Below, in pieces: positions 8,486-53,174 of a DNA stretch of 64,000 nt. The translations under genes were made by a program, and so were the position numbers. Position 1 is the stretch's first letter, and each line of letters opens with the position of its first letter. Below the pieces are notes generated by a model that was not told the DNA's origin, did no database searches, and saw only the letters and a program-made list of their open reading frames with translations. The stretch comes from Bacteroidota bacterium (GTDB lineage: Bacteria; Bacteroidota; Bacteroidia; Palsa-965). Location: positions 62,001 through 126,000 of the forward strand of contig JACQAM010000007.1 in NCBI GenBank assembly GCA_016194975.1, read 5' to 3'.

Positions 8486-8995
8486 ATGGATAAAAAATCT
8501 GAACTGGAAACGCTGCGCAACATGGTGGATGCTACGCGGCAACTTGCGCACTTCGCCATAAAAAAACTCGACAACAAAAATGCAGATCTCAAAAAAAGAT
8601 TTGAGGTGGAAGGAAGAAAGATCAACAGCGTCTACTGGCTTTTTGCACACATGACCTGGGCAGAGAGTATTTTAATTCTCCGTTCTAGCGGCGGGCCAAA
8701 TCCCGAATTACCATGGATGAAATTATTTGCATTGGGAAAACCGGCGGAAGAAGGACAGGACAACGGTCCGCCGTGGGAAGAAGTATATGCCGGATTCAAA
8801 AAAGTCCACGAAATGTCGATGGCTCATCTTGCAATGTTGAATCCGGAAGATCTCGATTCAGAAAATAAATTGAGTTGGGAAATTCTCGGTGGAAAAACAA
8901 TGCGCAACACTATTATGCATCACATTCGGCATGAGAGTAATCACATCGGGCAATTGCTGTGGTTGGTTAATTTTCACGGCGGTCGCACACTTTAG
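8486..8995 (+). CDS. DinB-like (YfiT/DinB superfamily) metal-binding four-helix protein
   Basis: 169 aa from the ATG at 8486. Earlier in-frame starts overlap the cupin gene and give no DinB sequence. The family's three metal-binding His positions are visible: LFAHMTW near residue 47, and IMHHIRHESNHIGQ near residues 140-150. Members are four-helix bundles that bind a divalent metal; many are thiol transferases (for example bacillithiol-dependent), but the substrate here is unknown. The TAG stop lies exactly at the left edge of a tandem repeat array (8992-9111). Confidence 0.75.
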   Translation: MDKKSELETLRNMVDATRQLAHFAIKKLDNKNADLKKRFEVEGRKINSVYWLFAHMTWAESILILRSSGGPNPELPWMKLFALGKPAEEGQDNGPPWEEVYAGFKKVHEMSMAHLAMLNPEDLDSENKLSWEILGGKTMRNTIMHHIRHESNHIGQLLWLVNFHGGRTL

Positions 8996-9111
8996 TACGA
9001 ACTACGAAATGGGCGAATACGCCAACTACGAAAACGCGAATCGTACTTAGTACGAACTACGAAATGGGCGAATACGCCAACTACGAAAACGCGAATCGTA
9101 CTTAGTACGAA
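8992..9111. repeat. Two tandem 55-bp repeats plus a partial third
   Basis: Units 8992-9046 and 9047-9101 are direct copies with a period of 55 bp, followed by ten bases of a third copy. Each begins TTAGTACGAACTACGAAATG. The first TTAG supplies the stop codon of the DinB-like gene. The core GTACGAACTACGAAATGGGC recurs inverted at 9175-9191 and in the 9687-9917 array, so the GxxExxY gene is bracketed by inverted copies. Not a CRISPR: there are no unique spacers. Confidence 0.85.
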
Positions 9112-9659: not shown

Positions 9660-9917
9660 ACACACCTTTAGTACGAACTAAAGCAAGTTTTCGAATCTTT
9701 AGCGAATCTGTATTACGCGTATTCGCCCATTTCGTAGTTCGTACAAAAGATAGTTTTCGAATCTTTAGCGAATCTGTATTACGCGTATTCGCCCATTTCG
9801 TAGTTCGTACAAAAGATAGTTTTCGAATCTTTAGCGAATCTGTATTACGCGTATTCGCCCATTTCTTTAGCGAATCTGTATACGCGTATTCGCCCATTTC
9901 GTAGTTCGTACAAAAGC
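9660..9917. repeat. Tandem array of 66-bp repeats
   Basis: Units begin at 9687, 9753 and 9819 (period exactly 66 bp), with a shortened fourth copy ending near 9917. Each reads TTTTCGAATCTTTAGCGAAT, then CTGTATTACGCG, then the reverse complement of the 8992 core. The array fills the 330-bp space between the GxxExxY gene and panB and reaches the panB stop codon (TAG, 9917-9919). Both strands stay open across it only because 66 is a multiple of three; I do not count those reading frames as genes. Confidence 0.88.
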
Positions 9918-23318: not shown

Positions 23319-25430
23319 ATGAGTGAGAATCAGAATCAGCAGCAGCCGGATAATGACCAGGACCGTTTTCGCGATAAAGGAAATCCGCGTAAACCACAAT
23401 TGCCGCGTTCGCCTGCAGGATTTTTCTGGGTGTACATCATCATCATTGCCGGGCTGATTGGATTTTTTGTTCCGGGAATGATGAACAGTTTGCCGGAAGT
23501 AAATTACAATGAATTCACTGCGCTGGTGAAAGATCATGCCGTACTTGAGATCCGGCGCGTGTCCAATGATAATAACGTGATGGAGATTGTTCTCGATGAT
23601 AAAAAAGCAAGCGCACCTTCCATTGCCGATATCAAATCAAAAAACAAAGGATGGAGAGGACCGGTTCCTCCCGGAGAAGCGCATTTGCAATTGTCGAGTA
23701 CCTGGTCTGAAGAACTGGAAAAACAAATTCGCGCTACCGAAGATTCTGCTCATTATAAAAAAGACGGAATAGAATACATTCCCATCAGGGAAGTGAAACA
23801 TCAGAATCTTTCTGACCATCTCAGCTGGATTCTTCCGATCCTCATGCTCGTGGTACTCTGGATTTTTGTTATGCGCAGAATGGGTGGAGGTGGAGGCGGG
23901 CAGATTTTCAACATCGGTAAATCGCGCGCCTCGCTCTATGACAAAGACACTTCTGTGAATGTGACGTTCAATGATGTGGCGGGACTTGAAGAAGCAAAAG
24001 TGGAGATCAAAGAGATCGTTGATTTTCTCAAGCACCCGAAAAAATATACCGATCTCGGTGCAAAAATTCCGAAAGGCGCATTGCTCGTTGGCCCTCCCGG
24101 CACAGGAAAAACACTGCTCGCAAAAGCAGTTGCCGGTGAAGCGAAAGTTCCTTTCTTCTCACTCTCGGGTTCCGACTTCGTGGAAATGTTCGTAGGCGTA
24201 GGCGCATCGCGCGTGCGCGATCTTTTCAAACAGGCGAAAGAAAAAGCGCCGTGCATTATTTTCATTGACGAGATCGACGCGATTGGCCGCGCGCGTGGGC
24301 GCAGCATTTCACAAGGTGCGAATGATGAAAGAGAAAATACGCTGAACCAATTACTCACTGAGATGGATGGATTCGGAACAAACAGCGGTGTGATCATTCT
24401 TGCTGCAACGAATCGCGCTGACATACTCGACCGCGCACTCCTGCGTGCAGGACGTTTCGATCGCCAGATCTATGTTGATCTTCCTGACCTGAATGAACGT
24501 CGTGCTATTTTCCAGGTGCACCTGAAACCATTGAAGCTCGATAAAACTGTTGACTTGGATTTTCTTGCCAAACAAACCCCCGGTTTTTCCGGCGCTGATA
24601 TTGCAAACATCTGTAACGAAGCGGCACTCATTGCGGCGCGTCACAATAAAAAATTAGTGGAGAAACAGGATTTTCTCGATGCAGTGGATCGTATCATTGG
24701 CGGACTCGAAAAGAAAAATAAAATTATTTCCAAAGCAGAAAAAGAAACGATCGCATTCCACGAAGCAGGCCATGCCACAGTAAGCTGGATGCTCGAACAC
24801 GCGGCGCCATTGGTAAAAGTGACCATTGTTCCTCGCGGGCGTTCGTTGGGCGCTGCCTGGTATCTGCCGGATGAACGTCAATTGACAACCACCGAACAAT
24901 TCATGGATGAGTTGTGTGCAACTCTTGGCGGAAGAGCGGCAGAGGAAGTGGTGTTCGGAAAAATTTCTACCGGTGCACTGAGTGATCTCGAGCGTGTGAC
25001 CAAACAGGCTTATGCGATGGTCATGTATTATGGACTGAATGAAAAAATGGGAAATATTTCCTACTACGATACGAGCGGACAGGAATTCATGATGAATAAA
25101 CCTTACAGCGAAAAAACAGCCGAGACGATAGATGAAGAAGTAAAAAAACTGATTGCTGTTGCTTACGAAAAAACAAAACAGATCCTGCGTGACAATAGAG
25201 ATAAACTGTCCCAGCTTGCGCATAAGCTCATGGAGAAGGAAGTTATTTTCAAAGAAGATCTCGAAACAATTTTCGGAAAACGCAAATGGGATAAATCAGA
25301 TGAAAATCCTACGCCGGAACAAATGAAGAATGCCATTGAAGTGGATGAACCGATCGTGGAGCCGGGAGAAGAAGCAGCAGAAGGAAAAGATGTTCCTGCA
25401 GTTCCGAAAGTTGATGCCCCGAAGGAATAG
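23319..25430 (+). CDS. ftsH: ATP-dependent zinc metalloprotease FtsH
   Basis: 703 aa. An inner-membrane AAA+ protease that degrades unassembled and short-lived membrane and cytoplasmic proteins. Two transmembrane helices (about residues 35-55 and 167-184) flank a periplasmic domain. The AAA module has Walker A GPPGTGKT (258-265), Walker [13 protein letters not shown] and the second region of homology. The zinc site is HEAGH (481-485), with the third Asp ligand in the later helical domain. The acidic C-terminal tail ([12 protein letters not shown]) is typical for Bacteroidota. Upstream rsfS and downstream LUD and cdsA form a gene order that I believe is conserved in the phylum. Confidence 0.97.
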
Positions 25431-25510
25431 AGGTGAGAAGTGAGAACTGAGAGGTAAGAACTGAGAACTTAGAAATGGGAAGTGGGAAATGGGAAATCAG
25501 GATGTTAGTA
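25431..25510. repeat. Iterated short repeats (GAGAACTGAGA type) after ftsH
   Basis: The sequence iterates variants of an 8-to-9-base word: GTGAGAAGTGAGAACTGAGA, then GTAAGAACTGAGAACTTAGA, then a GGGAAATGGGAAA stretch. It begins right at the ftsH stop. Related words occur at 25953-25990, 30133-30160, 38797-38832 and 39655-39680. No coding function is seen. Confidence 0.7.
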
Positions 25511-25579: not shown

Positions 25580-25963
25580 ATGAAACACATTGTAAGAAAA
25601 CTTAAAATCTGGAATGAAGCGATTGATCTCGCTGTAAATGTTTACGAACTGTCTTCTCATTTTCCGTCGGACGAAAGATTCGGATTGATCTCACAAACGA
25701 GAAGAGCATCTGTTTCTATTTCCTCAAATATTGCTGAGGGCGCCGGCAGAAATACCAACAAAGATTTCGCCCGATTTCTCGGAATTTCCAATGGATCATC
25801 TTGTGAACTGATGTCGCAATTGGTCATCGCGCAAAGGCTCGACCTGGTTCAGGAATATCAGGTTGCTCCTGTTCTCAAAAAAATTGACGAGATTCAACGC
25901 ATGACTTATTCCTTCAGGCAGCAACTACTGTCAGGTACTGTTTACAAAAACTCTAAGTTCTAA
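25580..25963 (+). CDS. Four-helix-bundle protein (23S rRNA-intervening-sequence family)
   Basis: 127 aa. Signature of the family: LKIWNEAIDLAVNVYELS, FPSDERFGLISQTRRASVSI, SSNIAEGAGRNTNKDFARFL, and GSSCELMSQLVIA. Homologues were first seen encoded in insertions within 23S rRNA genes and resemble the accessory Avd protein of diversity-generating retroelements; most are solitary and their role is unknown. No reverse transcriptase or template repeat is nearby, so a retroelement is not supported here. It sits between ftsH and the LUD gene with short iterated repeats on both sides. Confidence 0.9.
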   Translation: MKHIVRKLKIWNEAIDLAVNVYELSSHFPSDERFGLISQTRRASVSISSNIAEGAGRNTNKDFARFLGISNGSSCELMSQLVIAQRLDLVQEYQVAPVLKKIDEIQRMTYSFRQQLLSGTVYKNSKF

Positions 25964-25992
25964 ACTCTAAGTTCTAAGCTCTAATCTCCCCT
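25953..25992. repeat. Iterated AACTCTAAGTTCTAA repeats after the four-helix-bundle gene
   Basis: The words CTCTAAGTTCTAA, ACTCTAAGTTCTAA and GCTCTAATCTC follow each other directly. The first overlaps the last codons and stop of the four-helix-bundle gene. The word is the reverse complement of the AGAACTTAGA type seen after ftsH, so the gene has inverted short-repeat flanks. Confidence 0.65.
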
Positions 25993-41670: not shown

Positions 41671-41829
41671 TTTCGTCCGGCTAAATTAACTATTGCATTA
41701 TTCATCCGGATGATCATCCGTTCACCGTGTGGTTTTGTTAGCAATTAATGGTGTTTTTTACATTGTAAAGGATTGATTTCAAGCACCGGATTGATTAACT
41801 TTCGCACGCTTAAACCACCTTCCTGCCCA

Positions 41830-44800
41830 ATGAAAAAATTTCTAACGTTTCTCCTGCTGTTCCTCGTTATCACAAGCAGTGGAATTTTTGCGCAATCGGC
41901 CTGCCCGCAGGTTACTATTGCACCGGCTTCTTCTATTTGCTCCGGCCAATGCGAAAATCTTACTGCAACTGTGCAGGGATCTGTTGCTACAACTTCGTAT
42001 AATGTTTCCAACATTGCTTATGCACCTTATGCATTTACCGGCGGTAATCCTGTACTTGTGAATATCGATGATACCTGGTCAAGTGTTGTAACTATGCCAT
42101 TCTGTTTTCAGTTTTTCGGTAATACCTACACTCAATTTGTTATTGGATCGAATGCACTTATTTCCTTCGACATCACACAAGCCAACGCCTATTGTCAATG
42201 GCCGATCAATGCAGCCATTCCTACCAATACAAATCCCATGAATTCGATCATGGCTCCTTATCACGACATTGATCCTTCTGTTGGAACTCCAACATCCGCG
42301 ACTGATATCAATTGGGCGGTATATGGAACTGCACCTTGTCGTTACATGGTTGTGAACTGGAATGATGTTGCTATGTTCTCCTGCACAACTCTTATTGCAA
42401 CTTCTCAATTGGTACTTCACGAAACTACAAATATCATTGACGTTTACATTCAGAATAAACCACTTTGCGCATCATGGAATGCAGGTGCAGCAATAGAAGG
42501 AATTCAGAATTCCACAGGAACAGTTGCCTACTGGGTGGCGGGAAGAAATTATCCGACGCAATGGACTGCCTCTAATGATGGAAAACGATTCACGCCTTCG
42601 GGTGCGCCGCAATATACACTCAACTGGACGGGGCCATCAGGAAATTTAGGAAGTGCAAATCCACTCAACGTTTGTCCCACCACCACTTCCACATACACAT
42701 GCACTGTAACCAATACAACATGCGCCGGAAACGTTGTTGTTTCTTCAACAGTAACAGTTCCTGTAACTTCTGGATTGACCGTTGCCGGTACGCAAATAAA
42801 TTCAACTTCCTGTTTAGCATGCAATGGATCTGCGACAACTACTGTCACTGCAGGAACCGGTCCGTTCACTTACGCGTGGACTCCTTCGGGTGGAAATGCA
42901 GCTACATCAAATAATTTATGCGTAGGCACCTACACGTGTACGGTAACAGGAGCGGGCGGCTGCACGGGCACACAGGTATTCACCATCACAGGGCCGTCTC
43001 CTCCAACTTCGACGCAGGCAATGACAAATGTTACTTGCAATGGCGGATGTAACGGAACCGGAACCATCACTCCGAATCCTGCAGGCGCATACACTTATGC
43101 CTGGTCGCCAAGTGGAGGAACTGCTGCAACTGCCAGCGGACTTTGCGCAGGAACATACACCGTCACTGCAACAAATGCCGGGGGTTGTACTACAACACAA
43201 ACCATCACGATCACACAACCAACAGTTCTTGCTGCAACAGTTTCCACAACTGCAGCAACATGCGGTGGTAACAACGGATCTGCAACAGTTTCTCCTTCGG
43301 GAGGAACGGGGCCTTACTCTTATTCCTGGGCCCCATCGGGAGGAACGGGTGCAACTGCGAATTCACTCGTCGCCGGAACGTACACATGTACAGTTACTGA
43401 TGCAAGCGGCTGCACAACTACTGCGACCGCGATCGTAGGCAGCAGTGGTGGAATAACAGCAGCAACAACTGCAACAGTGAATGTTTCCTGCAATGGAGGA
43501 ACCAACGGATCTTCTACTGCATCACCAACAGGGGGAACCGGGCCTTATACTTACGCATGGTCTCCGTCCGGCGGAAATGCAGCAACAGCAAATAATCTTG
43601 CTGCAGGAAACTATACATGCACGATCACAGATGCAAATGGATGTATCGCTACAACTACAGTCACCATCACACAACCGGTTGCGCTCACAGCAATTCAAGC
43701 TCACACCAATGTTACCTGCAACGGGGGAAACAACGGCTCTGCTACAGTAACTGCTTCCGGTGGAACCGGGCCTTACACTTACGCGTGGTCTCCGTCCGGC
43801 GGAAATGCAGCAACAGCAAATAATCTTGCTGCAGGAAATTATACGTGTACCATCACGGATGCCAATGGTTGTACTACAACACAACTCTTTACGATCACGC
43901 AGCCGACTCTTCTTACTTCCACCAACTCAACAACGCTAGCCACCTGCGGAAATTCGAACGGATCTGCAACTGTGACAGCTTCCGGCGGAACCGGACCTTA
44001 TACTTATTCCTGGTCACCGGCCGGTGGAAATGCAGCCACAGCAAATAATATTCCTGCTGGCACCTACACGTGCACGATCACCGATGCGAGCGGGTGCACG
44101 CAAACTTCTATTGCAACGGTGAATAACAGCGGAGGCCCGGTTGCAACTATGAGTGCGCCGACAAACGTTTCCTGTTTCGGTGGCAATAATGGTTCGGCTA
44201 ACGTAACTGTTGCCGGTGGAACAGTACCTTTTACATATTCGTGGTCACCCATTGGTGGCACTTCTGCAACCGGTGCAAATCTCACAGCGGGTAATTATAC
44301 GGTTACTGTCACGGATGCGAACGGATGTATTACAACTTCGTCAGCGGTGATCACGCAACCAACTGCGCTCACGATAACCGGAACATCTTCCAATGTCGAT
44401 TGTTTCGGAAATTCAACAGGAACGGCATCCGTTATTCCCGGTGGCGGTTCGCCTGCGTACACGTATGCGTGGTCGCCGGCAGGAGGAAATGCCGCGAATG
44501 CAAATCCTCTTACGGCAGGATCCTATACCTGTACTGTTACAGATCTAGATGGTTGTATTATAACACAAACCTTCTCGATCACAGAACCGCCGCAACTGAC
44601 TCTCGCAGTAGCCGGATTCAATGTCACTTGTTTCAATGCATGCGATGGACAGATCGTTTCCATTCCTTCTGGCGGGGTTCCCGGTTATACTTTCAACTGG
44701 AGTACCGGTTGCAGCGCCGCGTCGTGCAATAATATCTGTGCGGGAAATTACACGTGTACAGTTACTGACGCTAACGGATGTATCATCACTAATTCCGCAA

Positions 44801-46299
44801 CGGTCACACAACCAACAGCGCTTTCCATTGCCACCAGCGAAGTGGATGCGCATTGCAATCAGAGTGACGGTTCAGCAACGGCGACAGGCTCGGGTGGAAC
44901 AGGAACATTGAATTATCAATGGACAGGAGGACCTTCGAATGCAAACTGGAATAATATTTCTGCCGGAACGTATTGGATTATTGTCACTGATCAGAACAAT
45001 TGTATTGATTCAACTTCAGTAACTGTGAATAATATTGCGGGTGTGAATGCTTCGTTGCAAAGTGTTTCAAATATTTCCTGCAACGGAGCATGTAACGGAA
45101 TTATTACAGGAACTTCAAGCGGAGGAACAGGAATACTCACTTATTCCTGGTCACCATCGGGTGGAAATACATTGACAACAAATCCTGTTTGCGCAGGAAA
45201 TTATACACTCACTGTTACAGATGCAGTTGGTTGTACAGCTACGTTCACAGCAGCAGTAACACAACCTCCGCCACTCACAGTAACGGCAACTGCAAATCCT
45301 CCTTCGCTTTGTGCCGGATCATCAACAAGCATTAGCTGTCCGCCGGCTGGTGGAACTCCTGCATATAATATTACGTGGATGCCGGGAAATCTTTCCGGTG
45401 CGAATCAAACTGTTTCTCCTAATGTTACTACGACTTATTCGGTGGTGGTAACAGATGCGAACGGATGTATGGACAGTACAAATGTTACGGTAACTGTCAA
45501 TGCAAATCCTGTTGCGACACTTGCCGGCGATTCGCTTTCGGGATGTGCGCCACACTGCGTGAACTTCAGTGATCTTTCTACCGTTTCGAACGGAAACATC
45601 ACGCAATGGTCATGGGATTTCGGCGATGGAAATAATTCCACATCACAAAATCCGGTTCATTGCTATATCACAGCCGGAAATTATACGATCATTCTCACTG
45701 TTTCCACTTCTACCGGTTGCACCAACACCATCACGATGAATAATTACATCAGCGTATTTGCCATTCCGGTTGCTGATTTCACTTCCAGTCCACAGCCGAC
45801 CACGGAACTTGACCCTACTTTATTTTTTACAGACGCATCACAAAATGCTTCTTCGTGGATGTGGAATTTCGGCGATACAACAAATGCAACTTCCATTCTG
45901 CAAAGTCCTTCTTATATGTATGGAGGGCCCGGATGTTTTGATGTAACACTAACTGTAACTTCTTCCAATGGATGTATGGATTCAACTGTTCACCCGATCT
46001 GCATTGATCCCGATGTTACGATTTTTGTTCCGAATGCATTTACACCGAATGGAGACGGAGTGAATGAAACTTTCTTTGCGCAGGGAGTCGGAATTGATCC
46101 GGATAAATTTGAATTGTGGATCTTCGATCGCTGGGGCAACCTGATTTTTTATTCGAAGGATATGAATAAAGGATGGAACGGAAAAGTGCAGGGGCACGAA
46201 GATCTTTGCCAGATCGATACTTACGTATGGAAAATAAAAGCGGTGGATGTGTTAGGCCACAAACATAATCTCATTGGTAAAGTGAGTCTCGTCAGGTAA
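41830..46299 (+). CDS. Giant SprB-repeat adhesin with T9SS type B sorting domain (1)
   Basis: 1489 aa from the ATG at 41830 (signal peptide KKFLTFLLLFLVITSSGIFA, cleavage after AQ). Residues 25-270 form a nidogen-like beta domain (FCFQFFGNTYTQFVIGSNAL, IMAPYHDIDPSVG, GRNYPTQWTASNDGKRF). About eleven SprB-like repeats of 75-77 residues follow, each with the pattern CNGGxNGSATVTxSGGTGPY...SWSPSGG...AGxYTCTITDANGC...TITQP, two Cys per repeat. An Ig-like unit, two PKD domains (WSWDFGDGNN, WMWNFGDTTN) and the type B gliding-associated C-terminal domain (VPNAFTPNGDGVNETF, WIFDRWGNLIFYS) end the protein. Exported by the type IX system and expected at the cell surface. Confidence 0.92.
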   Translation: MKKFLTFLLLFLVITSSGIFAQSACPQVTIAPASSICSGQCENLTATVQGSVATTSYNVSNIAYAPYAFTGGNPVLVNIDDTWSSVVTMPFCFQFFGNTYTQFVIGSNALISFDITQANAYCQWPINAAIPTNTNPMNSIMAPYHDIDPSVGTPTSATDINWAVYGTAPCRYMVVNWNDVAMFSCTTLIATSQLVLHETTNIIDVYIQNKPLCASWNAGAAIEGIQNSTGTVAYWVAGRNYPTQWTASNDGKRFTPSGAPQYTLNWTGPSGNLGSANPLNVCPTTTSTYTCTVTNTTCAGNVVVSSTVTVPVTSGLTVAGTQINSTSCLACNGSATTTVTAGTGPFTYAWTPSGGNAATSNNLCVGTYTCTVTGAGGCTGTQVFTITGPSPPTSTQAMTNVTCNGGCNGTGTITPNPAGAYTYAWSPSGGTAATASGLCAGTYTVTATNAGGCTTTQTITITQPTVLAATVSTTAATCGGNNGSATVSPSGGTGPYSYSWAPSGGTGATANSLVAGTYTCTVTDASGCTTTATAIVGSSGGITAATTATVNVSCNGGTNGSSTASPTGGTGPYTYAWSPSGGNAATANNLAAGNYTCTITDANGCIATTTVTITQPVALTAIQAHTNVTCNGGNNGSATVTASGGTGPYTYAWSPSGGNAATANNLAAGNYTCTITDANGCTTTQLFTITQPTLLTSTNSTTLATCGNSNGSATVTASGGTGPYTYSWSPAGGNAATANNIPAGTYTCTITDASGCTQTSIATVNNSGGPVATMSAPTNVSCFGGNNGSANVTVAGGTVPFTYSWSPIGGTSATGANLTAGNYTVTVTDANGCITTSSAVITQPTALTITGTSSNVDCFGNSTGTASVIPGGGSPAYTYAWSPAGGNAANANPLTAGSYTCTVTDLDGCIITQTFSITEPPQLTLAVAGFNVTCFNACDGQIVSIPSGGVPGYTFNWSTGCSAASCNNICAGNYTCTVTDANGCIITNSATVTQPTALSIATSEVDAHCNQSDGSATATGSGGTGTLNYQWTGGPSNANWNNISAGTYWIIVTDQNNCIDSTSVTVNNIAGVNASLQSVSNISCNGACNGIITGTSSGGTGILTYSWSPSGGNTLTTNPVCAGNYTLTVTDAVGCTATFTAAVTQPPPLTVTATANPPSLCAGSSTSISCPPAGGTPAYNITWMPGNLSGANQTVSPNVTTTYSVVVTDANGCMDSTNVTVTVNANPVATLAGDSLSGCAPHCVNFSDLSTVSNGNITQWSWDFGDGNNSTSQNPVHCYITAGNYTIILTVSTSTGCTNTITMNNYISVFAIPVADFTSSPQPTTELDPTLFFTDASQNASSWMWNFGDTTNATSILQSPSYMYGGPGCFDVTLTVTSSNGCMDSTVHPICIDPDVTIFVPNAFTPNGDGVNETFFAQGVGIDPDKFELWIFDRWGNLIFYSKDMNKGWNGKVQGHEDLCQIDTYVWKIKAVDVLGHKHNLIGKVSLVR

Positions 46300-46631: not shown

Positions 46632-49600
46632 ATGAAACACATCCACTCACGACTTCTTCTGGCGTGCACATTGCTCTATGCGATCGCGTCTAATGCACAA
46701 CCTTCTCAACCCACAATTTGCCCGATCAACGCGGGACCTAATCAAAGTGTGTGCGTTCCTACTTGTGCAAATCTCTCGGGAACTTTTACTCCTACTTTTC
46801 AAACCAATACGTACTCGATGAGTACGATTCCGTACACACCGGATCCTTTCACCGTAGGAACTGCGCTTGTTCTTGGTGATGACCAATGGTCCTCTGCTAT
46901 TCCACTGCCATTCACATTTTGCTATTTCGGCAATCCCTATACACAATTACTGATTGGCTCGAACGGTGCTTTGACATTCGATCTTACACCCGCAGGCGGT
47001 TATTGTCAGTGGCCAATTAGTGCTGCAATGCCTACTGCAAGTGACCCTGTAATGATCGGCGGTCCCTGGCAGGATCTTTATCCTCCTGGTGGCGGAACAA
47101 TTAAATACACAACTTACGGGGTGGCTCCATGTAGAAGGTTTGTTGTTTCATGGTACCAGGTTCCGATGTATTCGTGCACAACAACACTTTGTACTCAGCA
47201 ATTGACATTATATGAAACGACCAATGTCATTGACAATTATCTGCAGTCAAAAGGACTTTGTACCGGGTGGAATGGTGGAAATGCAATCCAAGGAATCCAA
47301 AACCCAGCTTTTAATACCGCCTTTGTTCAAGCCGGTCGTAATTATCCAACTCAATGGTCCGCAGTTAATGATGCCAAGCGCTGGCAACCAGCTGGCGCTG
47401 CAACTTCAGTAGTTTCATGGTACCAGGGAGCAACTGCAATTGCTACTGTAGTAAATAATGGAACCGGAATTGCAACAGCAACAGTTTGCCCGGTTGCAAC
47501 AACAACTTATACGCTTCAGGAAATTTCTACAAATTGTAATGCTACTACTGCAACAGTAACTTCGACTATGACAGTTACAGTAAGTTCACTCACACTTTCA
47601 GGAACGCAAACGAATAACGTGTGTTCGAGTAGTTGCACAGGAACAGCAACCACAACCGTAGTTTCAGGTACTGGTCCTTTTACTTATTTATGGACACCAG
47701 CACCAGGAGGAGGACAAGGAACTGCAACTGCCACAGGTTTGTGTGCAGGAACTTATTCGTGTACTGTAACAGGCGCCGGTGGTTGTCAGGGAACTCAAAC
47801 TTTTACAATCACAGCTAATCCACCAATTACAGACGTCCCGTCTCATGTGAATGTAAGTTGTAACGCTGCATGCAATGGCTCTGCAACTGTAGTTGCTTCC
47901 GGCGGAACGGGAACATATACTTATTCATGGGCGCCGGTCGGAGGAACATCGGCAACTGCCACCGGATTGTGTGCAGGAAATTATACATGTACAATTAGTT
48001 CACCGGCGGGTTGTACTATAACACAAACCTTCACGATCACGCAACCCACTGCTCTTACTGCAACACAGTCGCAAGGAACTATTTTGTGTAACGGAGGAAC
48101 TACAACAGCAAGCGTAGTTGCATCAGGAGGAACTCCGGCTTATACTTACAACTGGACACCTTCCGGAGGAACCGGTGCAACTTCTACACCTCTGGGTGCG
48201 GGATCATACACGTGCACGATCACTGATGCGAACGGATGCTCGATAACAAAAACATTTACCATTGCCCAGCCAACAGCGATCACTGCAACTTCTACATCAA
48301 GCACTGCAACATGCGGAAGCCCGAATGGATCTGCTACAGTTACTCCTTCCGGAGGAACTCCTGGTTATACTTATTCATGGGCACCAAGTGGTGGAACAGG
48401 TTCAACCGCGAGCGGATTAACAGCAGGAACTTATACTTGCACGATCACTGATGCGAATGGATGTTCTATTACAAAAACAGTTACTGTTTCCAGCACGAAT
48501 AGTTTAAGTGCAACCATTACCGGAAACGTTTCAGTTTCATGCAATGGAGGAAATAACGGAAGTGCAACTGTTACTCCTGTCGGAGGAAATCCGGGTTTCA
48601 CTTATTCCTGGTCACCAACAGGTGGAACAGGTGCAACGGGTGTGAATCTCACTGCAGGAAATTATACGGTAACCGTGAATGATGCCGGCGGATGTTCTGC
48701 AACAGCAACTGTAACAATAACACAACCGACTGCAGTTACTGCAACACAATCTCAGACTAACGTAACATGCAATGGAGGAAATAACGGCACTGCTACTGTT
48801 GTTGCATCAGGAGGAACTCCTGCTTATTCTTATTCATGGGCGCCATCGGGCGGAACGAGTGCAACTGCATCCGGGCTTTCTGCAGGAACTTATACCTGCA
48901 CGATCACAGATGCGAATGGATGTTTGATCACAAAAATATTTACGATCACTCAGGCAACTGCGATCACAGCTACCACTTCATCTACACAAGCAACCTGCGG
49001 AAATCCGAATGGAACAGCGACTGTAACACCTTCAGGCGGAACTCCTGGTTATACTTATTCATGGGCGCCAAGTGGAGGAACAGGATCAACAGCTTCAGGA
49101 TTAGGAACAGGAACTTATACATGCACGATCACTGATGCTGCAGGTTGTTCGATTACAAAAACAGTTACGATCACCAATGCAGGTTCACCAACAGCAACGA
49201 TCACTTCGTCAACAAATATTTCATGCTTCGGTGGCAACAATGGATCTGCTACTGTTTCTGCTTCAGGCGGAACTGGCCCTTACACTTATTCATGGTCTCC
49301 GATTGGAGGAACAGGAACTACTGCAAGTTCACTCACAGCAAATACCTATACTGTTACTGTTACTGATGCAAACGGATGTTCGAACATTGCAACCGTTACC
49401 TTGACACAACCAACAGCATTAACTGCTACTGCAACTGCATCACCGGTTTTGTGTAATGGTGGAAATACCGGATCTGCAGCAGTGACTCCTGCCGGAGGTT
49501 CTCCAGCGTACAGTTACTCATGGTCACCAAGCGGTGGAACTGGTGCAACAACAACCGGTGTTGGCGCAAATACATACACGTGTACAGTTACAGATTCACA

Positions 49601-52600
49601 CGGATGTACAACAACAGCAACGGCAACAGTAACACAACCTACTGCACTCACTGCAACAACTTCTCAAGTAAATGTTCTTTGTAATGGAGCATTGACCGGA
49701 TCTGCAACAGTGAATGCAAGCGGAGGAACTCCTGCTTATTCTTATTCATGGGCACCGAGCGGCGGAACATCTGCTACTGCAAGCGGACTCGGTGCAGGAA
49801 CATTTACTTGCACAATCACTGATGCAAACGGTTGCTCGATCACAAAAATATTTACGATCACACAGCCAACTGCATTGAGTGCAACAACTTCGTCCACACA
49901 ATCTACCTGCGGAAATCCAAACGGATCTGCTTCTGTAGTTGTCAGCGGAGGAACTCCTGCTTATTCTTATTCATGGGCTCCAAGTGGCGGAACCGGTTCT
50001 ACTGCTTCCGGACTCGCATCAAATATTTATACAGTAACAATCACTGATGCTAATGGATGTTCGCTAACTGCAACTGCAAACGTAACAAACGCGGGTTCTC
50101 CAACAGCAACTATTACTTCTTCTACAAACGTTTCCTGTTTCGGAGGAAATAACGGATCGGCTACTGTTTCTGCTGCTGGTGGAACCGGACCTTATACTTA
50201 CAATTGGACACCAGCAGGTGGAACCGGAATCACCGCAAGCGGATTGACCGCATTGAATTATAGTGTAACGGTGACCGATGCGAATGGATGCACAGCAACT
50301 GCTTCAGTTCTCATCACTCAACCAACCGCTCTCGCTGCAACTGCAAGTTCTTCTCCTGTTCTTTGTAATGGAGGAAATACAGGATCTGCAACTGTAACAA
50401 TAACCGGTGGAACTAGTGCTTACACACAGAACTGGACACCGATCGGTGGAACAGGAACGACAGCAAATAATCTTACGGCGCAAACGTATACATGTACCGT
50501 GATTGATGCGAATGGATGTTCAACTACTGCGACAACAACTGTTACACAACCAACAGCACTCACTATTACCGGAACGCAAACCAACGTGAATTGTAACGGT
50601 GGAAATACAGGTGTAGCGAATGTGACAGTTGGCGGCGGAACACCGGTTTATACTTATTCATGGTCACCGACTGGTGGAACCGGTGCAACTGCAATGAATC
50701 TCCCCGCACAGAATTATACGTGCACAGCTACTGACGGCAATGGTTGTATTATAACACAAACCTTCGCGATCACTGAACCACCACTGCTCACGGTTACTAC
50801 AACAACTGTTTCTTCCACCTGCGGAAATCCAAACGGATCTGCTACTGCAACTCCTGCCGGAGGAACACCGCCTTACTTCTATTCATGGTCGTCCGGCGGA
50901 ACTGCTGCAACTGAAACAGGATTGAGTGCAAATACTTACACCGTTACTGTTACGGATAATAAAGGATGTACAGCAACTGCGGTTGTCACGATCACCAACA
51001 TGGGATCACCAACTGTAACGATCACTTCTTCTTCGAATGTTCTTTGTTTCGGTGGCAACACCGGTTCGGCAACTTCGAATGGAACAGGCGGAACAGGCGT
51101 GCTCACTTATGCATGGTCGAACGGCGGAACAAATCCAACTGATAATAATCTTTCTGCAGGAACATATACGATAACTGTTACTGATGTGAACGGTTGCCAG
51201 GATACAGCACAGGTTATCATCACTCAGCCACCAGTGCTCACTGTTTCAACAACGCAAGCCGATGAACTCTGCAATGGTGGATCGACCGCTTCTACAAACG
51301 CAATTCCTGCCGGTGGCGTTACCGCGTATTCTTACCTCTGGTCGAATGGCGTAACCACTTCCACCAACTCAGGAATTCTTGCAGGAAATTATTCTGTTGT
51401 TGTTACTGATGCGAATGGATGTACTGCAAATGCAAACGTTACGATCATCGAACCAACTGCTCTTGCTCTCACCACTTCACAAGTGGATGAAACCTGCTTC
51501 GGCGGTTCTACAGGATCTGCGACTGTAACTGCTACGGGTGCGACACCTACTTACGGTTATCTCTGGTCGAATGCAAGCGCTGCTGCAACAACTTCGAATC
51601 TCACTGCAGGATTGTACACCGTGAATGTTACCGATGCAAACGGATGCACAGCTTCTGCAACAGTAACAATAACTGAACCGACGCAAGTGACAGCAGTCGC
51701 AACTGAAGTGGATGCGCATTGCAACCAATCTGATGGTTCTGCAACTGTGACCGGCGGAGGCGGAACTCCGGGACCGGGTTACACTTACCTCTGGTCGAAT
51801 GGAGGAACCACTGCAACCATTTCGAATATTCCATCGGGAACTTACAATGTTACTGTGACCGATGCGAACGGATGCAGCGCTACAACTTCAGTTACTGTAA
51901 ACAATCTCAACGGTGTGAACACTTCTGTGAATTCAACAACGAATATTCTTTGTAATGGAAATACAACAGGACAGATCCTCATCAATTATGGCGGAGGAAA
52001 TGGCCCGTACAATTTTGCCTGGACACCGAACGTAAGTGCGAATGATTCTGCAAATAATATCGGTGCGGGAACTTACACTTGCGTAGTCACTGACGCAAAC
52101 GGATGTTCTTCTACAGCGACAGCAACACTCACGCAACCCGCTGCACTTACTGTTACTGCGAGTGCATCTCCTCCTGCAGTTTGTGCCGGCTCGTCTGTTC
52201 AGTTGAATGCAAATCCAACTGGTGGAGTTGGTCCTTATACAGTAACATGGGGCCCAATAGGAATGACAGGAACTTCGCCGAATTATACTCCTGCTGCTTC
52301 CGGTGTTGATACGGTTTACGTTGTTGATGCGAATGGTTGTACCACAAATACAACTGTGAATGTTATTGTATTTGCAATGCCGGTAGTTTCATTCACGTCC
52401 AATATTCAAGCCGGTTGCGATCCTGTTTGCGTTTCATTCTCCGATCTTTCTACTGTTGCAAATCCGGCGGTGATTAATGCGTGGACATGGGATTTCGGTG
52501 ACGGAAATAATTCTTCATCGCAGAATCCTGGTCATTGTTATTCCGTATCCGGTTCTTACAATGTTACACTCACTGTGAAAACCCAGGATGGTTGTTTGCA

Positions 52601-53174
52601 AACGATCACGATGAATTCTTACATCACCGTTCATCCGAATCCTGTAGCGGCATTCAGTGCATCGCCACAACCGACAACTATTCTTGATCCAATGATAGAC
52701 TTCACGGATGCTTCAACCGGTGCAACAGCATGGTCATGGAGTTTCGGTGATCTCGTCGGTACATCCACGAATGAGAATCCATCTTATACCTATCCAAGCG
52801 TGGTCGATTGTTACCAGGTTGTACTTACTGTAACAAGTGTTGACGGATGTGTTGATACAGTTTCTCACCCCGTGTGCCTCGAGCCGGATGTGATGATCTA
52901 TGTTCCGAATGCTTTCACACCTGACGGAAATAATACGAACGATATCTTCAACGCAGTTTGTCTCGGAATAGATCCCGATAAATTCCAGATGTGGATCTAT
53001 GACCGCTGGGGCAACCAGATCTTCTATACTGATGACATTAATAAAGGATGGGACGGAAGAGTGATGGGACATCCTGACGTTGCGCAAATCGATACGTATG
53101 TATGGAAGATAAAAGCAACTGACCTCCTCGGAAAACAACACAGTCTGCTGGGAAAAGTAAGTTTGATCAAATAA
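46632..53174 (+). CDS. Giant SprB-repeat adhesin with T9SS type B sorting domain (2)
   Basis: 2180 aa, paralogue of the preceding gene. Signal peptide (SRLLLACTLLYAIASNAQ), the same nidogen-like N-terminal domain (FCYFGNPYTQLLIGSNGAL), then about twenty SprB-like repeats of 74-78 residues (roughly 320-1880). An Ig-like unit, two PKD domains (WTWDFGDGNN, WSWSFGDLVG) and the type B sorting domain (VPNAFTPDGNNTNDIF, WIYDRWGNQIFYT) follow. Composition is dominated by Thr, Ala, Gly and Ser. Repeats 6-17 are arranged in super-units of four. Expected to be a surface adhesin; the only SprB-repeat protein with a known role acts in gliding. Confidence 0.92.
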   Translation: MKHIHSRLLLACTLLYAIASNAQPSQPTICPINAGPNQSVCVPTCANLSGTFTPTFQTNTYSMSTIPYTPDPFTVGTALVLGDDQWSSAIPLPFTFCYFGNPYTQLLIGSNGALTFDLTPAGGYCQWPISAAMPTASDPVMIGGPWQDLYPPGGGTIKYTTYGVAPCRRFVVSWYQVPMYSCTTTLCTQQLTLYETTNVIDNYLQSKGLCTGWNGGNAIQGIQNPAFNTAFVQAGRNYPTQWSAVNDAKRWQPAGAATSVVSWYQGATAIATVVNNGTGIATATVCPVATTTYTLQEISTNCNATTATVTSTMTVTVSSLTLSGTQTNNVCSSSCTGTATTTVVSGTGPFTYLWTPAPGGGQGTATATGLCAGTYSCTVTGAGGCQGTQTFTITANPPITDVPSHVNVSCNAACNGSATVVASGGTGTYTYSWAPVGGTSATATGLCAGNYTCTISSPAGCTITQTFTITQPTALTATQSQGTILCNGGTTTASVVASGGTPAYTYNWTPSGGTGATSTPLGAGSYTCTITDANGCSITKTFTIAQPTAITATSTSSTATCGSPNGSATVTPSGGTPGYTYSWAPSGGTGSTASGLTAGTYTCTITDANGCSITKTVTVSSTNSLSATITGNVSVSCNGGNNGSATVTPVGGNPGFTYSWSPTGGTGATGVNLTAGNYTVTVNDAGGCSATATVTITQPTAVTATQSQTNVTCNGGNNGTATVVASGGTPAYSYSWAPSGGTSATASGLSAGTYTCTITDANGCLITKIFTITQATAITATTSSTQATCGNPNGTATVTPSGGTPGYTYSWAPSGGTGSTASGLGTGTYTCTITDAAGCSITKTVTITNAGSPTATITSSTNISCFGGNNGSATVSASGGTGPYTYSWSPIGGTGTTASSLTANTYTVTVTDANGCSNIATVTLTQPTALTATATASPVLCNGGNTGSAAVTPAGGSPAYSYSWSPSGGTGATTTGVGANTYTCTVTDSHGCTTTATATVTQPTALTATTSQVNVLCNGALTGSATVNASGGTPAYSYSWAPSGGTSATASGLGAGTFTCTITDANGCSITKIFTITQPTALSATTSSTQSTCGNPNGSASVVVSGGTPAYSYSWAPSGGTGSTASGLASNIYTVTITDANGCSLTATANVTNAGSPTATITSSTNVSCFGGNNGSATVSAAGGTGPYTYNWTPAGGTGITASGLTALNYSVTVTDANGCTATASVLITQPTALAATASSSPVLCNGGNTGSATVTITGGTSAYTQNWTPIGGTGTTANNLTAQTYTCTVIDANGCSTTATTTVTQPTALTITGTQTNVNCNGGNTGVANVTVGGGTPVYTYSWSPTGGTGATAMNLPAQNYTCTATDGNGCIITQTFAITEPPLLTVTTTTVSSTCGNPNGSATATPAGGTPPYFYSWSSGGTAATETGLSANTYTVTVTDNKGCTATAVVTITNMGSPTVTITSSSNVLCFGGNTGSATSNGTGGTGVLTYAWSNGGTNPTDNNLSAGTYTITVTDVNGCQDTAQVIITQPPVLTVSTTQADELCNGGSTASTNAIPAGGVTAYSYLWSNGVTTSTNSGILAGNYSVVVTDANGCTANANVTIIEPTALALTTSQVDETCFGGSTGSATVTATGATPTYGYLWSNASAAATTSNLTAGLYTVNVTDANGCTASATVTITEPTQVTAVATEVDAHCNQSDGSATVTGGGGTPGPGYTYLWSNGGTTATISNIPSGTYNVTVTDANGCSATTSVTVNNLNGVNTSVNSTTNILCNGNTTGQILINYGGGNGPYNFAWTPNVSANDSANNIGAGTYTCVVTDANGCSSTATATLTQPAALTVTASASPPAVCAGSSVQLNANPTGGVGPYTVTWGPIGMTGTSPNYTPAASGVDTVYVVDANGCTTNTTVNVIVFAMPVVSFTSNIQAGCDPVCVSFSDLSTVANPAVINAWTWDFGDGNNSSSQNPGHCYSVSGSYNVTLTVKTQDGCLQTITMNSYITVHPNPVAAFSASPQPTTILDPMIDFTDASTGATAWSWSFGDLVGTSTNENPSYTYPSVVDCYQVVLTVTSVDGCVDTVSHPVCLEPDVMIYVPNAFTPDGNNTNDIFNAVCLGIDPDKFQMWIYDRWGNQIFYTDDINKGWDGRVMGHPDVAQIDTYVWKIKATDLLGKQHSLLGKVSLIK
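48729..51455. repeat. Three tandem four-repeat super-units of 912, 912 and 903 bp
   Basis: Super-unit boundaries at 48729, 49641 and 50553 are exactly 912 bp apart; the next falls at 51456, 903 bp later. Each contains four SprB repeats in a fixed order: CNGG/CNGA type, TCGNPNG type, CFGG type, LCNGG type. The TCGNPNG repeat always ends in a T-N-x-G-S linker instead of the usual TQP or TEP. The arrangement implies amplification of a four-repeat block by unequal recombination. Confidence 0.8.

Follow-up and report, generated by a model that had tools for sequence, protein, structure and literature searches.

A 64,000-nucleotide stretch of the genome of a Bacteroidota bacterium (assembly GCA_016194975.1, contig JACQAM010000007.1, positions 62,001 to 126,000; this whole stretch is called the window below) holds the gene of a giant adhesin composed of immunoglobulin-like (Ig-like) domains, in which a preliminary description noticed that the repeats return four by four, in super-units of 912 bp. 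Does this second level of repetition tell us how such a protein is jointed, or does it only record how the gene has grown? The reading that we favour, and which we hold to be probable, is that the protein is a surface adhesin stalk of the type IX secretion system (T9SS), a string of SprB-type Ig beads that meet through two types of joint and are held by a disulfide from bead to bead. At the level of sequence, this reading is backed by the order of the domains, by a coupling between loop and linker and by a coupling of cysteines across the joint.

We counted strand G and the linker following it to the preceding Ig domain, which places a short loop and its linker in the same domain. A standard joint is made of a long AB loop (domain L) and a TQP or TEP linker, while S stands for a domain with a short loop of the TCGNPNG type. 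The array of the adhesin then contains the following units (o being a further loop class):

48273..48728, forward strand: partial earlier unit, an S domain (TCGSPNG) and its follower, one domain fewer than the later units (S spacing of 3)
48729..49640, forward strand: super-unit 1, 912 bp, L-S-L-L; S domain at 48957-49184, ending in the NAG of NAGSP
49641..50552, forward strand: super-unit 2, 912 bp, L-S-L-L; S domain at 49869-50096; the five-domain model discussed below begins here
50553..51455, forward strand: super-unit 3, 903 bp, L-S-L-o; S domain at 50781-51005
51456..52370, forward strand: super-unit 4, 915 bp, L-S-L-o, with the short loop CNQSDG; S domain at 51681-51911; this unit was absent from the preliminary description

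The boundaries at 48729, 49641, 50553 and 51456 each correspond to the residue after a QP or EP linker. The coordinates first reported, three boundaries 912 bp apart and a fourth at 903 bp, are therefore correct. A dot-plot enrichment at 912 bp over 228 bp, on which the super-unit had been staked, is present as well: over positions 47001-52200 of the window, self-identity by offset peaks at 912 bp (0.429), against 0.411 at both 684 and 228 bp. The mean DNA identity between repeats is 0.612 at lag 4 and 0.57-0.59 at lags 1-3 and 5-7. When the order of the 20 repeats was permuted, the lag-4 excess was matched in 16 of 20000 cases for DNA and in 5 of 20000 for protein. The copies are far from identical, since units 1 and 2, compared position by position, share about 64-76% of their DNA. 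Tandem Repeats Finder did not detect the adhesin array, because its copies are too diverged.

The spacing of 912 bp "to the base" had been presented as a regularity of its own. The number is right, and it is exactly 4 x 76 amino acids: nearly all domains have 76 residues, and the exactness is kept because the AB loop of the S domain, one residue shorter, is offset by a linker one residue longer. There is no second regularity beyond the unit. Similarly, the fixed order claimed for the repeat types holds for the S domain and for the domain following it. The other two positions can barely be distinguished (7 of the 35 possible label splits are equally good), and it is when one considers the first three copies by themselves that they separate, again barely (best of 10 splits). 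The S domains follow each other at spacings of 3, 4, 4 and 4, but random placement yields three equal spacings in 9.4% of cases; this is weak, and we did not use it as evidence. The paralog located upstream likewise ends in a domain of the CNQSDG type. The repeat pattern is real and was correctly described, in an ordinary kind of protein.

The linkers carry more information. The TCGNPNG repeat had been said always to carry a G-S linker instead of TQP. The linkers of the five S domains are NAGSP, NAGSP, NMGSP, SSTNS and NNLNG: TQP occurs in none of the five, and the exact G-S in three only. The absence of TQP was thus the valid part of the remark, and the arrays compared here indicate that it is general and amounts to a joint rule. 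In 35 other open reading frames (ORFs) of the same genome, a linker other than QP or EP follows 38 of 40 S domains and 23 of 153 L domains; at 39 loci of relatives, a non-QP linker follows 107 of 131 and 100 of 483, respectively. The contrast was found again in genomes fetched after the rule had been fixed (39 stretches, taken from 11 of the 15 other genomes in which a match occurred), where non-QP linkers come after 11 of 13 S domains versus 76 of 183 L domains (Fisher p 0.003). Taking together the 59 informative ORFs outside the window, linkers other than TQP or TEP follow 142 of 156 S domains and 119 of 529 long-loop domains. We permuted the linkers within each ORF, which removes lineage effects: the mean fell to 66.9 and the observed 142 was reached in 0 of 5000 permutations. 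Counted by ORF, 51 agree with the rule, 4 oppose it and 4 are ties. The linker preceding an S domain shows a weak association.

In these counts, linker pairs of 66-86 residues were kept (70-83 in the count on the 35 ORFs of the same genome). The two-by-two tables exclude loops of class "o" or "amb", and the tests on the later-fetched genomes and within ORFs also exclude short loops with a Gly at +2. A rule in which the linker depends on loop length and on nothing else had to be refined, as these last loops (CNGGxG, CYGNNG) often retain TQP or TEP. To judge from the later-fetched genomes, the short-loop half of the rule holds there, and the long-loop half loses strength with distance.

A direct reason for such a coupling can be looked for in the fold. 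The five-domain model (52 sequences) has a mean predicted local distance difference test (pLDDT) of 95.8 and a predicted template modelling score (pTM) of 0.65. Extra bridge residues appear in it in the S domain only: residues 88-89 and 92, in the AB loop, and residue 150, the first of the linker. In the model these bridges fit a direct contact between AB loop and linker in the S domain, although the pairing partner is not printed in the output. From the Ig strand order, we place the AB loop at one pole of the modelled domain, where strand G also ends, and the FG loop at the opposite pole.

Each domain has one Cys at the start of its AB loop and another at the end of its FG loop. As these two would, on that strand order, lie at opposite poles, a bond between them inside one domain is unlikely and a bond to the neighbour likely. 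One could still suppose that they pair within the domain or stay free, the more so as both are near-invariant in every domain, and plain counts cannot discriminate. The rare losses can. Among 1309 joints in 127 ORFs, the AB Cys of one domain and the FG Cys of the next are both present in 1253, the AB Cys alone in 8, the FG Cys alone in 17 and neither in 31 (phi 0.71). In the same joints, phi is -0.01 between the AB and FG Cys of one domain and -0.02 between the AB Cys of a domain and the FG Cys of the preceding one. A same-domain pair does not escape the method: for the Cys at AB+4 and the Cys of the EF-loop motif LCAG, phi reaches 0.96 (204 domains with both, 7 and 8 with one of them, 860 with neither), and these apparently form an intradomain pair. 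For the F-strand Cys (TYTC), no strong covariation partner was found. We thus regard intradomain or free AB and FG cysteines as very improbable.

The joints where only the FG Cys is left point in the same direction, as 16 of these 17 have a Cys in the linker, on the same pole as the lost AB Cys, versus 10 of the 1261 with an AB Cys and 1 of the 31 with neither. If an AB Cys or a linker Cys is accepted as partner of the next FG Cys, the counts become 1269, 9, 1 and 30, and phi rises to 0.86. Permutation within the 8 informative ORFs gives a mean of 10.0 joint losses against the 31 observed, which were reached in 0 of 5000 cases. The later-fetched set alone has a phi of 0.65 (p 2e-16), and in the window both Cys are present at all 31 joints (20 in the adhesin, 11 in the paralog). 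For this analysis we kept domains of 15 bits or more and joints of 60-100 residues, and the search range for the FG Cys was widened, as longer FG loops had given false losses. The arrays L117, L118 and L122 looked like exceptions to the staple and were rejected as such, their Cys being found relocated to the linker. In L118:2365-8706 (-), alternate domains have the staple Cys moved from the AB loop to the linker (SFVC|P), which makes a period of two.

We can now describe the joint as we conceive it. A domain and its successor would meet in a small interface at the C-terminal pole of the first. The AB loop (CNGGxxG or CGxxNG) would contribute to it together with the linker that follows strand G, and the successor would bring in its BC/FG end. 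These joints would be of two types, alternating by rule. The standard one combines the long AB loop with the TQP or TEP linker. In the S joint, the AB loop lacks one residue and the linker, rich in G, is longer, which preserves the pitch of 76 residues; in the window adhesin, S joints come at every fourth domain. Across each joint, the AB-loop Cys would be bonded as a disulfide to the FG-loop Cys of the following domain, giving a covalently stapled stalk able to bear load.

An inter-domain disulfide staple between the AB Cys of a domain and the FG Cys of the next is suggested by covariation, and several observations weigh against this picture. Most of the joint losses, 26 of 31, sit in four flavobacterial-type arrays, two of which look orthologous; when the two Aquimarina arrays are left out, the first data set keeps 2 joint losses and a phi of 0.40 (p 2e-4). 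One genome provides 13 of the 16 relocated Cys. As for the loop-linker rule, long-loop domains of distant genomes take a QP or EP linker in just 107 of 183 cases, and shortened CxGxNG loops often retain QP. The paralog of the window has no significant period (its best lag was reached by 215 of 2000 shuffles). Finally, a different angle or stiffness of the S joint is something that we infer, as we do the disulfide itself, the bearing of load and adhesion.

Is four then a number imposed by structure? Of 32 arrays with at least 12 domains, 10 have a best lag reached by at most 5 of 2000 shuffles. This lag is 4 in the adhesin and in L045, L050, L053 and L083, 4 together with 2 in L047, 2 in L036, 5 in L061 and L063, and 7 in L048. 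L083:1-13701 is a 44-domain array with a different loop type (CxKTSVTLTG), and its period is also of lag 4. In four more arrays, L064 (Aquimarina latercula), L069 (A. litoralis), L130 and L123, the last two coming from two genomes of one genus, every third joint lacks the Cys pair. Intervals of exactly three separate the unlinked joints in 6 of 6, 5 of 5, 6 of 6 and 4 of 5 cases, respectively, a spacing reached by 3, 10, 4 and 299 of 100000 random placements. These flavobacterial-type arrays indicate a super-unit of three, recognizable by the missing staple and not by an S joint. Since periods of 2, 3, 5 and 7 exist in related arrays, four, common as it is among the arrays compared, is not a general structural requirement.

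The age of the pattern can be read from silent sites. At the four-fold degenerate sites of the adhesin, identity at lag 4 is 0.446, against 0.41-0.47 at other lags, so that there is no excess and any block copying in this gene must be old. In the relative L045, domains 7 and 11 are 87% identical in DNA, domains 8 and 12 83% and domains 10 and 14 90%, with identities of 0.69, 0.57 and 0.85 at four-fold sites. A tree built on 118 domains of nine ORFs places S domains 4, 7 and 11 of the adhesin with the S domains of L045, and the followers 8, 12 and 16 fall with the L045 followers in one broad group of modest support; the domain types look older than the split between the adhesin and L045. These comparisons indicate that blocks of 912 bp are copied within the lineage, and that the copies in the window gene are old, their pattern surviving at the protein level. 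The growth by recombination of whole blocks that had been proposed is thus seen in L045, where copies at lag 4 are recent, and is not supported by the silent sites of the window gene itself.

These results bear on what else the super-unit could be. It might be a relic of an old block duplication in a tandem-repeat gene, the number four having no structural meaning. The recent block copies in L045, the periods varying from protein to protein (2, 4, 5, 7) and the two hardly distinct positions of the window adhesin are what this would predict. Mere descent, however, accounts poorly for a lag-4 excess which persists in the protein and is absent from its silent sites, for a coupling of S loop and linker kept within ORFs across many proteins, and for the S-domain spacing of 3,4 common to both paralogs; we consider the relic a possible but rather doubtful explanation.

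The opposite extreme is a structural super-turn, also raised in the preliminary description, in which four domains would make one turn of a superhelix and the S domains would face one side. In tandem Ig chains the twist from one domain to the next is commonly constant, and the S spacing of 4 is regular over four copies. Yet the related arrays have their other periods and the first S interval is 3 in both window genes, and we find the super-turn unlikely. That the exact repeat is an artefact of assembly can hardly be believed: we found no point in support of it, the copies differ by 24-36% in DNA, the same order is found in L045, and the array runs without stop or frame break. The stapled stalk with two joint types remains the reading that we prefer.

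The features of the adhesin gene and of its neighbour are the following:

46632..53174, forward strand: adhesin gene, 2180 amino acids, with an N-terminal region, about 21 SprB-type Ig-like domains, 2 PKD domains and a T9SS type B sorting domain
46632..46697, forward strand: putative signal peptide, residues 1-22, ending in SNA|Q (assigned by eye)
46698..47588, forward strand: N-terminal region, no Pfam family, candidate binding tip
47583..52370, forward strand: SprB-type Ig-like array, about 21 domains of 75-79 amino acids
52380..52631, forward strand: PKD domain, best-scoring stretch (Pfam)
52899..53120, forward strand: type B sorting domain of the CHU_C / Bac_Flav_CTERM kind (Pfam, NCBIfam)
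41830..46299, forward strand: upstream paralog of matching architecture, 12 domains; likely start ATG at 41830, the ORF opening with TTG at 41773

The adhesin matches the SprB family PF13573 of Pfam with an E-value of 1e-154, in 18 stretches (502 bits for the whole protein, cut-off 28), and also PKD_4 and CHU_C (40.8 bits for the latter, cut-off 27). Its match to TIGR04131 of NCBIfam (T9SS type B sorting) scores 38.2 bits, just over the cut-off of 35. It is therefore a member of PF13573 as well as a type B T9SS substrate. In the paralog, the S domains are spaced by 3,4 after the first. The N-terminal region was modelled with a mean pLDDT of 68, which is weak, as an Ig-like domain with a large insertion. 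A Foldseek search of this region against structures gave no match at E <0.001, and the VIA alignments span only the Ig-like frame, of about 90 residues; the region is probably an Ig-like frame carrying a large insertion. A region of this kind (about 300 amino acids) is common to both paralogs, to 3 other ORFs of the same genome, to L070 and to L073, where it occurs twice in one protein.

The genome (4.1 Mb in 28 contigs) has at least 35 further ORFs with SprB-type domains, a lower bound as 150 of 393 candidate stretches were scored, and a few of these ORFs are pieces of one broken gene. It also has 55 matches to type B sorting domains and 21 to PorP/SprF, while GldJ, GldK and GldB all score above cut-off. 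From these matches, the source genome belongs to the T9SS- and gliding-capable kind of Bacteroidota. None of the 21 PorP/SprF matches lies inside the window (C7:62001-126000), the nearest being at C7:34856 and C7:235753. This lowers the claim of SprB orthology alone; a distant partner is possible. Elsewhere, in L035:2-1108/987-3701 and in L149:4918-6582/6380-8041, adjacent overlapping frames both contain SprB domains, which likely reflects frameshifts in the genes or errors of assembly within repeats. The window has other repeats too. Perfect tandem repeats with units of 55 and 66 bp occupy 8992-9111 and 9686-9900; by eye, the unit of the second array holds the reverse complement of a core of the first, and the two arrays face each other across about 570 bp. 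Short low-complexity tandem repeats lie between ORFs at 25429-25488 (units of 7-21 bp) and 25948-25984 (14 bp).

Several known systems are close to the adhesin. SprB, the gliding adhesin of Flavobacterium johnsoniae, gave its name to PF13573, and the repeats of the window adhesin score as SprB repeats. Both proteins have a type B sorting domain, as far as the part of PMC10202324 which concerns SprB goes. The SprB filament is given as 6497 amino acids in the accessible text of PMC9870892, against 2180 for the window adhesin, which differs furthermore by its four-domain super-unit with S joints and by having no PorP/SprF gene in the window. The flavobacterial-type arrays, unlike the window adhesin, are without the Cys pair at every third joint. 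Another is the grappling hook protein A (GhpA) of Aureispira sp. CCB-QB1, the nearest relative of the array in the PDB in fold and in sequence: structure 9flp aligns by VIA with a Z of 14.5 and a root-mean-square deviation (rmsd) of 9.4 over 355 residues, 9flw is matched by Foldseek with an E of 5e-13, and a profile search of the GhpA sequence gives 2e-28. The Ig-like domains are thus related in both sequence and fold, at about 20% identity, and the domains in the aligned stretches of GhpA bear a Cys at both the AB and the FG places. PMC13319060, citing Lien et al. 2024, describes chains of 5898 residues forming a heptameric hook implicated in predation. The I-band of titin (3b43) is likewise a chain of Ig beads (Z 10.2, rmsd 12.3 over 359 residues), but tandem Ig stalks such as titin are not among the sequence matches of the array.

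Among open papers, we found none on repeat order or on inter-domain disulfides in these adhesins; the GhpA structure paper may describe such bonds. The available sections of PMC12635249 report disulfides of SprF and PorG to GldK and describe none within the adhesin, and those of PMC10202324 and PMC10994853 do not treat the repeats.

Finally, one may consider whether these observations amount to a joint code, in which disulfide-stapled Ig chains would have a variant joint every nth domain, setting where the fibre bends or stretches. This generalization is tentative, and we would sooner expect it to fail than to hold. The variant joint would be a short loop with a long linker or, in flavobacterial-type arrays, a missing staple, with n equal to 2, 3, 4, 5 or 7 according to the protein, a proposal that we put forward with the same reserve. 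In Bacteroidota, a motor pulls hard on the adhesins used for gliding and grappling, and it is an open question how stalks of such length carry the load. If the joint code is true, a disulfide at every pair of neighbours, together with regularly spaced variant joints, would give part of the answer.

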